Translations under genes and position numbers: made by a program | Notes under the pieces: generated by a model | Database searches by the model: none | Told to the model about the DNA's origin: nothing | The model's input: the letters and a program-made list of their open reading frames with translations, nothing else | Shown: positions 32,569 to 36,509 of the stretch, one piece after another | Layout of the letters: each line of letters starts with the position of its first letter | Numbering within the stretch: the stretch's first letter is position 1 | Assembly (NCBI RefSeq): GCF_001730525.1 | Contig: NZ_MDFN01000010.1 | Location: 1 to 64,000, forward strand | Direction of reading: 5' to 3' | Length of the DNA: 64,000 nt | Source: Arcticibacter eurypsychrophilus | GTDB lineage: Bacteria; Bacteroidota; Bacteroidia; Sphingobacteriales; Sphingobacteriaceae

Positions 32569-32576
32569 TATATTTG
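32569..32576 (+). promoter_or_regulatory. Possible trp operon promoter -7 element
   Basis: TATATTTG, an exact TAnnTTTG match, 50 nt before the leader-peptide ATG. A weaker CATATTTG lies at 32609-32616. The nearest TTG is only 13 nt upstream, short for a -33 box. Confidence 0.4.
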
Positions 32577-32626
32577 AAATTAATTTTACTTATTAACAAA
32601 GAAATGCTCATATTTGTAACCAAATC

Positions 32627-32680
32627 ATGAACACAAACAATGTACAAATTCTTTGGTTATGGCAATGCGAGCGATCGTAG
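32627..32680 (+). CDS. trpL: trp leader peptide
   Basis: Short frame ATG...TAG encoding MNTNNVQILWLWQCERS, 17 residues, with two Trp codons (32654-32656 and 32660-32662) separated by one Leu. It lies 95 bp before trpD and just before a strong terminator hairpin. Trp is a rare residue, so W-x-W here, right before trp genes, fits a leader peptide for transcription attenuation. Inferred from position and composition, not from homology. Confidence 0.78.
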   Translation: MNTNNVQILWLWQCERS

Positions 32681-32681
32681 A

Positions 32682-32760
32682 GGCTAACCGTAAATGTATA
32701 TTTTCAAATAACATACAAAAGGTTGTCCGGCAGACAACCTTTTTTTTTGTCCTGCCGGGC
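32682..32760 (+). promoter_or_regulatory. trp attenuator (terminator and competing structures)
   Basis: The terminator is an 11-bp perfect stem (32717-32727 with 32733-32743) plus a T run. Upstream GGCTAACC (32682-32689) can pair with GGTTGTCC of the terminator's left arm (32721-32728; 7 of 8 pairs, one G-U), or with GGTTA (32655-32659) that overlaps the leader Trp codons. These give the 1:2, 2:3 and 3:4 pairings of a classical attenuator. A further 9-bp hairpin (32725-32733 with 32752-32760) would also exclude the terminator. Confidence 0.72.
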
Positions 32761-32774
32761 AAAGAAATGATCAA

Positions 32775-33767
32775 ATGAAAGAGATATTAAACCGATTATT
32801 CGAACGCAAGACCTTTAATTCTGAAGAAGCTAAAGGAATTTTGAAAAACATTACGAAGGGAAAATACACCCAATCTCAAATGGCCGCTTTTATGACTGCC
32901 TATTGCATGAGAAGTATCACTTTGGAGGAACTGGAAGGGTTTCGCGACGCGATGCTGGAGCTTTGTCTGGATCCTGGACTTGAACAATATAGTTTGATAG
33001 ATTTATGTGGTACAGGCGGAGATGGAAAAGATACCTTTAATATCTCTACCCTTGCGTCTTTTGTAGTGGCAGGTGCGGGTTACCTGGTCGCCAAACATGG
33101 AAATTATGGAGTATCATCTGGTTGTGGTTCATCCAACGTGATGGAACATTTGGGATATCAGTTCACCAATGACCCTGGCTTACTTCAAAAAAGCGTGGAG
33201 CAAGCAGGAATATGCTTTCTGCATGCGCCGCTATTTCATTCCGCAATGAAGAATGTTGCTCCCGTCCGTAAGGAGCTGGGCGTTAAAACGTTCTTTAATA
33301 TGCTTGGGCCAATGGTTAATCCGGCTAAACCTAAATACCAGGTTGTAGGGGTATTTAGTTTGGAGCTGGCACGGTTATATGGATACCTCTATCAGAAAAC
33401 GGATAAAAATTACACCATTGTACATGCTTTAGATGGTTACGATGAAATTTCACTAACCGGGAGCTTTAAGACGTACTCCAATTATGGGGAAAAGTTGTAT
33501 ACATTGGATCAACTGGGCTTTGAAAAAGTAAATCCTCAGGAGATTACAGGGGGAAGTACAGTAGAACAATCGGCAAATATATTTAAAGATGTTTTGCAGG
33601 GGAATGCGACGACAGCGCAAAATAATGTAGTGCTGACAAATGCGGCATTAGCGATTAAGACGATTCATCCTGATAAATCATTTTCAGACTGTTTTTATGA
33701 GGCAGAGGAATCACTTCTTTCGAAAAAGGCACTCAAAAGTTTCAGTAATTTATTGGCTGTTAAATAA
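32775..33767 (+). CDS. trpD: Anthranilate phosphoribosyltransferase
   Basis: Second step of tryptophan synthesis: anthranilate + PRPP to phosphoribosyl-anthranilate. 330 residues, normal length. Signature glycine loop GTGGDGKDTFNISTLASFVVAGAG, then VAKHGNYGVSSGCGSSNVMEHLG, APLFHSAMKNVAPVRKELGVKTFFNMLGPMVNPA and HALDGYDEISLTG. The N-terminal helical domain begins LNRLFERKTFNSEEA. First structural gene after the attenuator. trpE, trpG and trpC, usually adjacent in Bacteroidota, are absent here. Confidence 0.95.
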   Translation: MKEILNRLFERKTFNSEEAKGILKNITKGKYTQSQMAAFMTAYCMRSITLEELEGFRDAMLELCLDPGLEQYSLIDLCGTGGDGKDTFNISTLASFVVAGAGYLVAKHGNYGVSSGCGSSNVMEHLGYQFTNDPGLLQKSVEQAGICFLHAPLFHSAMKNVAPVRKELGVKTFFNMLGPMVNPAKPKYQVVGVFSLELARLYGYLYQKTDKNYTIVHALDGYDEISLTGSFKTYSNYGEKLYTLDQLGFEKVNPQEITGGSTVEQSANIFKDVLQGNATTAQNNVVLTNAALAIKTIHPDKSFSDCFYEAEESLLSKKALKSFSNLLAVK

Positions 33768-33919
33768 AAAAGGTCAGTCAATCAAAGGTTAAAGCATGAT
33801 TTTGCGTAAATATATTAGAAGCGACGGGTAAGGATTTAAGAGCGGTGGCTTTAACAAAATAAGTAAGGAAAATTTAAGCTTATAAATATTAGCTGAAAGG
33901 CTACAAAAAAATAGGGTTT

Positions 33920-34552
33920 GTGGATATATTAACGAATAGAGCTAGGAAAATTAAGGTTTGCGGAATGAGAGACACTGCAAATATTCTGGAGATTGCTGCA
34001 CTGGAACCAGATTATATGGGCTTTATTTTCTATCCTTTATCTTCCAGATATGCAGGAGAAGTAGATGCGGAAATAGTTAGGCAACTCCCTTCTTCTATAA
34101 AAAAAACCGGCGTATTTGTCAATGCTGATCTTGCTACGATAGCTAAGTGGGGTACTGAGCTACAATTGGATGCTGTACAACTCCATGGAAATGAATCGCC
34201 TGAATTCTGCCTCAAAATAAAAGAAAAGGGTATTGAAGTTATTAAAGCGTTTGGCATTCATGCAAACTTTGACTTTAAATCACTTGAAAATTACCTGGAT
34301 GCGGTAGATTATTTTTTATTCGATACCAGTACTGCTCAACATGGTGGATCAGGTAAAGTTTTCGATTGGGAGTTACTTCGTCAAAACAATACGAATAAAC
34401 CATTCTTTTTAAGTGGGGGGATCGATCTGGATCAATTGGATACTATTGCCCAAATAAATGACAGCCGGTTATATGCGGTTGATTTGAACAGCAAGTTTGA
34501 ATTATCTCCCGGCATAAAGGATTATAGTAAGTTAAAAAAGATTTTTAAATGA
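33920..34552 (+). CDS. trpF: Phosphoribosylanthranilate isomerase
   Basis: Third step of the pathway, an Amadori rearrangement in a TIM barrel. 210 residues. Catalytic Cys in KVCGMRD and Asp in FLFDTST; phosphate site [10 protein letters not shown] and FLSGGID. Start GTG at 33920; no other start lies before KIKVCGM. The 152-bp gap after trpD holds no recognisable trpC fragment. Overlaps trpB by 4 bp (ATGA). Confidence 0.93.
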
Positions 34553-35739
34553 AGGTTATGAATTATCAAGTAGATGAAAAAGGATATTACGGAGTTTTCG
34601 GGGGTGCTTATATTCCGGAGATGTTGTATCCCAACATCAAAGAACTAAGAGAAAAATACCTCGAGTTTATAGAGGATCCTAAATTTCAGGAAGAATATGT
34701 GATGCTGCTTAAAGATTATGTGGGACGTCCTTCGCCCTTGTTTCTGGCAGAACGTCTTTCTAAAAAATACGGCGCTAAGATTTATTTGAAGCGTGAAGAT
34801 TTAAACCATACTGGAGCGCACAAGATAAATAATACGGTAGGACAAATTCTGGTAGCAGAGCGTTTGGGTAAAAAGAGGATTATAGCAGAGACGGGAGCTG
34901 GTCAGCATGGTGTGGCTACGGCTACGGTTTGCGCATTGAAGGGCCTTGAATGTATTGTTTATATGGGTGCCGTTGATATCGAACGTCAGGCTCCTAACGT
35001 AGCCCGTATGAAAATGATGGGCGCTACCGTTATTCCGGCTACTTCAGGAAGTCAGACTTTAAAAGATGCGACAAATGAAGCGCTGCGCGACTGGATTAAC
35101 CACCCTACTGATACGCATTATATTTTAGGATCGGTGGTTGGACCTCACCCCTATCCTGATATGGTTGCCCGTTTTCAATCGATCATTTCTGAGGAAACTA
35201 AATGGCAGTTGCAGGAGAAGACAGGCAAGTCGACTCCTGATTATGTACTGGCTTGTGTAGGTGGCGGAAGTAATGCCATGGGCATGTTTTATCATTTTCT
35301 GGCTGATGAGGATGTGAAGTTAATTGCTGTAGAAGCAGCTGGAAAGGGTGTGGATTCGGGTGAATCGGCAGCGACTACACTATTGGGAAAAGAAGGAGTG
35401 CTTCATGGAAGCCGCTCTTTGGTGATGCAAACGGAGGATGGACAGGTTGTTGAGCCTTATTCTATTTCTGCTGGTTTGGATTACCCTGGAATTGGTCCCC
35501 AACATGCCCATCTGTTTACATCCAGAAGAGCTTTATATGTGAGTATCACTGATGATGAGGCTATGTTGGCAGGAATGGAGCTTTCTAAACTGGAAGGAAT
35601 TATTCCGGCTATTGAAACAGCTCATGCTTTAGCTTATCTGGGTAAGATGAAGTTTAAAGAAGATGATACCGTTGTAGTTTGTCTTTCAGGACGTGGAGAC
35701 AAAGATTTGGATACCTACATGAAATATTTCGGACTATAA
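34549..35739 (+). CDS. trpB: Tryptophan synthase beta chain
   Basis: PLP enzyme joining indole and serine to form tryptophan. 396 residues, normal. [15 protein letters not shown] lysine in [42 protein letters not shown], phosphate loop [12 protein letters not shown] and the C-terminal [13 protein letters not shown]. Four-bp overlap with trpF and TAATG overlap with trpA show translational coupling. Confidence 0.97.
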
Positions 35740-36509
35740 TGAACAGAATTAATCAACTTTTTGAACAGAAGAAAGAATCGTTACTCTCTATATATTTTAC
35801 TGCCGGGTATCCGGATTTGAATAGCACTGTGGATATTGCTGAAGCGCTTGAAAAGGCAGGTGCAGATTTTCTTGAGATCGGCATCCCTTACTCCGATCCA
35901 TTGGCAGATGGACCGGTTATTCAGCACAGTTCACTTACAGCAATCAATAATGGAATGACCATTAAGGTGCTGTTTGAGCAATTGAAAGAACTGAGAAGCA
36001 GGGTAACGATACCTGTACTTTTAATGGGTTATTTTAACCCTTTATTGCAATATGGAGTGGAACATTTTTGTTCCTCTTGTAAGGAAGTAGGTGTAGATGG
36101 GATGATTATCCCTGATCTTCCGATGTATGAATATGAGGATTTGTACCAGGAATATTTTAGCATGAATGAAATTAGCAATGTATTTCTGATTACACCTCAA
36201 ACATCTGATGAGCGCATTCAAAAGATTGATGAGCTGAGTAATGGGTTCATATATCTTTTATCTTCTTCATCTACAACTGGAAAGGATTTAAATGTTTCTG
36301 ATCAGACGGAAAACTATTTTTCAAGGATCAAGAACATGCAGCTCAAGAACCCAACGATGATTGGCTTTGGTATTTCAGATCATACTAGTTTTGCTAAGGC
36401 AAGTGAATATGCGAATGGGGCTATTGTAGGAACGGCTTTTGTGAAAATATTAGAAAAGGATCATTATATGGAGCAGATTCCGAAATTCATAAAGGAGTTA
36501 AAAGGGTAA
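35739..36509 (+). CDS. trpA: Tryptophan synthase alpha chain
   Basis: Cleaves indole-3-glycerol phosphate to indole and glyceraldehyde 3-phosphate. 256 residues. Catalytic Glu in FLEIGIPYSDPLADGP and Asp in GMIIPDLPMYE; phosphate site GFGISDHTSF and GAIVGTAFVKI. The frame is open back to 35679 within trpB, but the ATG at 35739, overlapping the trpB stop by one base, gives the standard N-terminus [25 protein letters not shown]. Confidence 0.96.
   Translation: MNRINQLFEQKKESLLSIYFTAGYPDLNSTVDIAEALEKAGADFLEIGIPYSDPLADGPVIQHSSLTAINNGMTIKVLFEQLKELRSRVTIPVLLMGYFNPLLQYGVEHFCSSCKEVGVDGMIIPDLPMYEYEDLYQEYFSMNEISNVFLITPQTSDERIQKIDELSNGFIYLLSSSSTTGKDLNVSDQTENYFSRIKNMQLKNPTMIGFGISDHTSFAKASEYANGAIVGTAFVKILEKDHYMEQIPKFIKELKG

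Follow-up and report, generated by a model that had tools for sequence, protein, structure and literature searches.

A predicted tryptophan attenuator ahead of trpD-F-B-A, and a second before trpE, in Sphingobacteriaceae

Genes and leader features at the trpD locus

The stretch of DNA analysed here (the window, 64 kb) carries trpD, trpF, trpB and trpA in a row, 3' of a permease gene with FtsX and MacB domains (Pfam). A putative attenuator leader sits between the permease gene and trpD, and the features of the locus are as follows:

32609..32616, + strand: -7 promoter box CATATTTG, agreeing at 5 of the 6 fixed positions with the Bacteroidota consensus TAnnTTTG
about 32621, + strand: predicted transcription start, placed from the position of the -7 box
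32627..32680, + strand: leader peptide ORF MNTNNVQILWLWQCERS, 17 codons, with TGG (Trp) codons at 32654 and 32660
32639..32702, + strand: 1:2 hairpin (protector), AATGTACA with TGTATATT, from the predicted fold and pairing probabilities
32682..32689, + strand: region 2, GGCTAACC, 1 nt past the leader stop codon
32717..32748, + strand: intrinsic terminator, an 11-bp stem (32717-32727 with 32733-32743) and T9 (32740-32748)
32721..32728, + strand: region 3, GGTTGTCC, common to the antiterminator 2:3 and the terminator 3:4
32742..32767, + strand: local hairpin formed by the U-tract and the purines 3' of it, in the region claimed earlier for a third hairpin; present in 6 of 6 same-genus genomes
32775..33767, + strand: trpD (anthranilate phosphoribosyltransferase; Pfam PF00591, PF02885)
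33920..34552, + strand: trpF (Pfam PF00697)
34549..35739, + strand: trpB (Pfam PF00291, PALP family, and its position ahead of trpA)
35679..36509 as the listed ORF, + strand: trpA (Pfam PF00290), with an ATG at about 35739 as the likelier start

The gap between trpD and trpF (152 nt, 33768-33919) is long for an operon.

An earlier note on this DNA had proposed a complete trp attenuator, and the leader ORF, the 1:2 hairpin, the antiterminator and the terminator were all confirmed before trpD. The 17-residue leader with two Trp codons was found at 32627-32680, the start claimed for the element (32569) lying well upstream of this ORF. Within the predicted fold, the proposed pairing of GGTTA (32655-32659) with TAACC (32685-32689) forms inside a longer 1:2 stem, in which TGGTTA pairs with the TAACC region and a small apical hairpin lies ahead of the stop codon. 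The pairing of region 2 with region 3 also held, as GGCTAACC can pair with GGTTGTCC at 7 of 8 positions, one of them a G-U, and so did the 11-bp terminator stem (32717-32743). The locus thus has the short ORF with clustered Trp codons 5' of trp genes that belongs to ribosome-mediated trp attenuators.

The fold of region 32600-32775 had a z-score of -3.64, none of 200 shuffles being equally good. In dinucleotide shuffles of the stretch ahead of trpD, a W(x)W leader arose by chance in 23 of 3000, and a leader followed by a terminator in one of 3000. A scan of both strands of the whole 64-kb window for leaders with an ATG start and 8-30 codons yielded a single leader-plus-terminator unit. A strong terminator is indeed present between the permease gene and trpD, and it could be a constitutive intergenic terminator beside a coincidental W-L-W ORF; however, this reading is extremely improbable in view of the shuffles and because 85 of 90 trpD loci have such a leader upstream (see below), with a promoter box just 5' of it.

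Conservation of the leader in relatives

The comparison covered 151 genomes of the family, by which we mean inferred Sphingobacteriaceae. A trpD match was found in 135 of these (in G036 as a 52-residue piece only) and a trpE match in 134. Upstream DNA was read for a subset of those found, i.e., 91 trpD and 70 trpE loci; two loci, L089 and L072, were left out (upstream DNA cut, or match beginning within a gene fragment where the contig starts), leaving 90 trpD and 69 trpE loci. Script scoring took in 84 trpD and 66 trpE leaders, and two more were added by hand: L077, with a leader 457 nt upstream of trpD, and L169, with a trpE leader lacking a good promoter box.

A short leader ORF with clustered Trp codons was present at 85 of the 90 trpD loci and 67 of the 69 trpE loci; the proposed check of whether relatives keep the Trp codons was therefore passed. 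Within the genus, the leader stands before trpD in all five other genomes. Script-scored leaders were followed by a terminator in 84/84 trpD and 65/66 trpE cases. Among genomes read at both places, 54 of 57, in 19 of 20 genera, had both attenuators. In a set of named genomes, which overlaps the family set, 78 of 80 trpD loci had leader and terminator (77 with the promoter box as well, one without), the remaining two being cut by contig ends. The leader ORF extends through region 2 in some relatives, so that the position of its stop codon is not conserved.

At the 90 trpD loci, a clustered-Trp leader was lacking in G007, G031 and G047, which belong to one genus, and in G013, while G143 has a leader with one Trp codon; at the 69 trpE loci it was lacking in G007 and G047, where the leader has two Trp codons that are scattered. 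The genus of G047, G007 and G031 is a natural loss of the switch. At its trpD loci L118, L119 and L126 and its trpE loci L161 and L165, the Trp-rich leader is gone or the Trp codons are scattered, and by eye a promoter-like box and a terminator remain before trpD at L118 and L119. In the closest relative (L008 and L009, G004:C77), trpD appears as two overlapping pieces with one TAA, which is either an assembly error or a broken gene.

Competing pairings and covariation

In 82 of 84 trpD and 65 of 65 trpE leaders, region 2 was more complementary to region 3 than its own shuffles were on average; for region 1 with region 2 this held in 55 of 84 and 57 of 65, respectively. When 60 of these 84 trpD leaders were aligned, the register of the 1:2 stem varied (by eye), and we therefore relied on pairwise duplex tests. 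Own 1:2 pairs were better than pairs swapped between genomes in 63/84 trpD (p = 1.1e-8) and 55/65 trpE leaders (p = 1.1e-9), as were own 2:3 pairs in 52/65 trpE leaders (p = 4.0e-8). Own 2:3 pairs of trpD showed no clear gain over swapped ones (43/84, p = 0.09). All four p-values are uncorrected for kinship. The controls 1:3 and 2:4, which share the kinship of the tested pairs, gave nothing against swapped pairs.

The consensus fold of the 60-leader alignment contained the terminator only, with 6 of its 9 consensus pairs changed on both sides. As to the covariation check suggested earlier, the competing pairings of regions 1-4 are thus kept in relatives, and covariation is seen for the terminator. 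Sequence and comparison together establish the parts of the predicted element, their conservation and the competing pairings.

The structured leader might instead be read by a ligand or a protein, i.e., a metabolite-binding riboswitch or a TRAP-like, protein-controlled terminator might act in place of ribosome stalling, and such a reader would be compatible with the measurements made. We nevertheless regard this as very unlikely, since the best conserved columns of the 60 aligned leaders include the start codon and the Trp codons in frame with it, and apart from these and the switch arms no conserved core was seen by eye.

Promoter boxes and short predicted 5' UTRs

A position of -12 to -5 is reported for the -7 box of Flavobacterium psychrophilum (PMC9723704), and by this rule we predicted the 5' UTR as the distance from box to start less 4. 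The trpD leaders had a median predicted 5' UTR of 6 nt (8 nt or less in 73/84) and the trpE leaders one of 2 nt (8 nt or less in 66/66). A search of the 2-20 nt ahead of the leader ATG found, for the 84 trpD leaders scored by script, a box matching at least 5 of 6 positions at distances of 5-17 nt. When strict scanning was extended to 120 nt, the 84 trpD leaders had 64 boxes at 4-12 nt and another 13 at 13-20 nt, and the 66 trpE leaders had 53 and none, respectively; any other distance bin held three boxes at most, and 7 trpD and 12 trpE leaders had no strict box within the 120 nt.

As both leader ORFs begin a few nucleotides past the -7 box, leaderless or nearly leaderless messages are predicted for them. 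The same strict scan of 36 window genes gave four boxes at 4-12 nt and two at 13-20 nt. With this non-zero baseline, the trp leaders are not alone in having short 5' UTRs and differ only in being much more uniform; at some of the class-wide loci, the distance from box to leader is larger (by eye). For comparison, published genome-wide rates are low, with 5.5% leaderless transcripts in F. psychrophilum (PMC9723704) and, for Bacteroides thetaiotaomicron, about 3.7% of 5' UTRs shorter than 10 nt. We considered leaderlessness as a new principle and rejected it, given the non-zero baseline and the leaderless leader peptides reported for Sinorhizobium and Streptomyces.

F. psychrophilum is described as lacking Shine-Dalgarno sequences (PMC9723704). 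The short predicted 5' UTRs offer a way to test ribosome loading for attenuation without such sequences. To our knowledge, the rest of the phylum Bacteroidota also does without them.

Predicted switching

To model the switch, the transcript was folded at growing lengths with the bases under a ribosome held unpaired, with an assumed footprint that extends 15 nt 5' and 12 nt 3' of the codon. When the ribosome was placed on W10 or W12, the model gave the antiterminator 2:3 a probability of 0.99-1.00 at 3' ends 32730-32734; at 32738 it was still 0.88 or 0.98 for the two Trp codons, with the terminator 3:4 at 0.18 and 0.03. Moving the ribosome to the stop codon lowered 2:3 to 0.00 and raised 3:4 to 1.00 from 32738 on. 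Without a ribosome, the predicted 1:2 pairing predominated at 32730-32734 (0.82-0.84, against 0.16-0.18 for 2:3), and the terminator reached 0.99 at 32738. The comparison of folding with and without a stalled ribosome, which had been put forward as a check, thus gave model folds that depend on ribosome position, and the idea that stalling at the Trp codons frees region 2 to block the terminator was borne out in them. The mutually exclusive antiterminator and terminator set by ribosome position that mark ribosome-mediated trp attenuators are accordingly present as predicted folds with comparative support. From 3' end 32743 onward, the terminator was the favoured fold in every modelled state, that with a stalled ribosome included, and antitermination would therefore have to be kinetic, i.e., a matter of timing.

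In the mechanism that we propose, RNA polymerase would start about 6 nt 5' of the leader ATG, and a ribosome would load on the nearly 5'-terminal AUG. With enough tryptophan, it would reach the stop codon and cover region 2, leaving region 3 free to form the terminator 3:4, and transcription would end ahead of trpD. With little tryptophan, it would stall on the W-L-W codons and block region 1, so that region 2 could pair with region 3; once 2:3 had formed, transcription would continue into trpD-F-B-A. Without translation, 1:2 would form and the terminator would win. We infer three elements of this scheme, i.e., the start site, the ribosome positions and the response to tryptophan. Taken together, the sequence and the model folds point with high confidence to ribosome-mediated transcription attenuation by charged tRNA-Trp before trpD-F-B-A, and the attenuator very probably switches on trpD, trpF, trpB and trpA when tryptophan runs short.

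The region 3' of the terminator

The earlier note had also drawn a third, 9-bp hairpin (32725-32733 with 32752-32760) and suggested that it provides a second regulatory input on termination. The complementarity itself is present, and in five of six same-genus genomes the whole post-terminator stretch does better than its shuffles (fraction as good 0.000-0.026; 0.20 in the sixth). The second input, however, did not stand and is most unlikely. The hairpin lies 3' of the U-tract and can therefore form only in read-through RNA, once polymerase has passed. Moreover, its complementarity was not found in three genomes of one other genus (fraction as good 0.70-0.93), nor did a family-wide search find pairing of region 3 with the post-terminator segment (p = 0.10 for trpD, 0.51 for trpE). 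In all six same-genus genomes, the same bases instead fold as the local U-tract hairpin (z -1.5 to -4.4), and 10 of 78 other trpD leaders have a z below -2 at the post-terminator position. A local hairpin of the read-through RNA is the better reading of this third hairpin.

A split pathway with a second attenuator before trpE

The window's genome carries trpE as a neighbour of trpG (identified by eye from the protein) and trpC, on a contig other than that of trpD; G000:C26 rather than C33 was taken as trpE on the grounds of its neighbours. In the 15 family genomes listed as a single contig (G012, G021, G033, G055, G060, G066, G083, G100, G107, G110, G112, G126, G141, G146 and G150), trpE and trpD were in every case at least about 390 kb apart.

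The trpE gene of the window's genome has its own leader, MLKNKYTQLWWWQEHVPRDIVYLY (L002 / L044), with a terminator different from that of trpD. In this leader AATAAATATA is present on both sides of TATATTTATA, so that the TATATTTATA segment can pair either way. At full length, the model put the probability of its antiterminator at 0.63-0.71 when the ribosome was stalled, against 0.00-0.01 in the other states; before region 4 was complete it gave 0.97-1.00 in all states, with no separation between them.

The attenuator is ordinary in kind, a known type of switch. Less ordinary is the division of the pathway into two halves, each under a predicted attenuator of its own. The signal would be charged tRNA-Trp at both places, the attenuator before trpE following the same logic in another sequence, and both halves of the split pathway would respond to it. 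They would form a natural paired system of one signal, two operons and two leaders. We lean modestly towards a general arrangement in Sphingobacteriaceae that combines a split pathway, an attenuator for each half, two sequence types and leaderless or nearly leaderless leaders, with ribosome loading at the 5' end coupling the ribosome to RNA polymerase where Shine-Dalgarno pairing is unused.

Comparison with known systems

The closest known element is Bacteroid-trp (Rfam RF01692), which appears in a row of Table 1 of PMC2864571 as a probable cis-regulatory RNA and is described for F. psychrophilum as similar to the E. coli Trp leader (PMC6414381); leader-peptide attenuation upstream of amino-acid operons is also reported for that species (PMC9723704). 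Like the window element, Bacteroid-trp has a Trp-codon leader and a terminator ahead of trp genes in Bacteroidota. The RF01692 covariance model (cut-off 49 bits) found no match in the window or its genome, and trpD leaders of four same-genus genomes scored 31-38 bits, i.e., below the cut-off. It passed the cut-off in 8 of 151 family genomes, in seven of them directly before trpD; the eighth match (G020:C41) lies on a different contig from that genome's trpD, whose upstream DNA is cut by the contig end. The window element thus occupies a position orthologous to that of elements which pass, and it is an orthologue of Bacteroid-trp, though unmatched by the Rfam model.

At E 0.1 or better, RF01692 matched 67 of 151 family genomes, and none of these matches (stricter filters, 20 candidates scored per genome) was at a trpE place found in the family; it also gave no match to the window genome's own trpE leader at E up to 5. 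In a class-wide sample it was over the cut-off in 9 of 247. The next gene at 11 class-wide loci, read by eye, was trpB in four, trpE in four and unread in three, but never trpD, which the window element precedes.

The best RF01692 score in its genome and in the family sample scored, 41.0 bits, fell at L036, about 1480-1670 (G011:C4:29348-29468), where an attenuator-like leader without Trp codons and a terminator stand before an aminotransferase-like gene; its ORF, read by eye, is MSTKKVNTIYVAAVAKTTVEG, and a TATATTTG box precedes the ATG by 8 nt. A weak RF01692 match is therefore not always a Trp leader.

A literature search found no paper on trp attenuators in Sphingobacteriaceae, which is weak evidence of absence as most subscription papers lay outside the search. 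The present analysis extends Bacteroid-trp to a family mostly missed by Rfam (8 of 151 genomes over the cut-off, against 85 of 90 trpD loci by direct reading) and adds a second, predicted type of Trp attenuator, before trpE.

With the E. coli trp operon leader (RF00513, Trp_leader) the window element shares the logic of a Trp-codon leader peptide and regions 1-4. The RF00513 model (cut-off 41 bits) found none in the window, its best score in a relative being 36.9 bits, and we regard the E. coli leader as a functional analogue. The trpL-trpE(G) attenuator of Sinorhizobium meliloti resembles the predicted one here in that its leader ORF is leaderless and precedes one part of a split trp pathway; the other operon there, trpDC, is reportedly controlled in trans by the leader RNA rnTrpL (PMC7298713). 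In contrast, each operon here has its own predicted cis attenuator.
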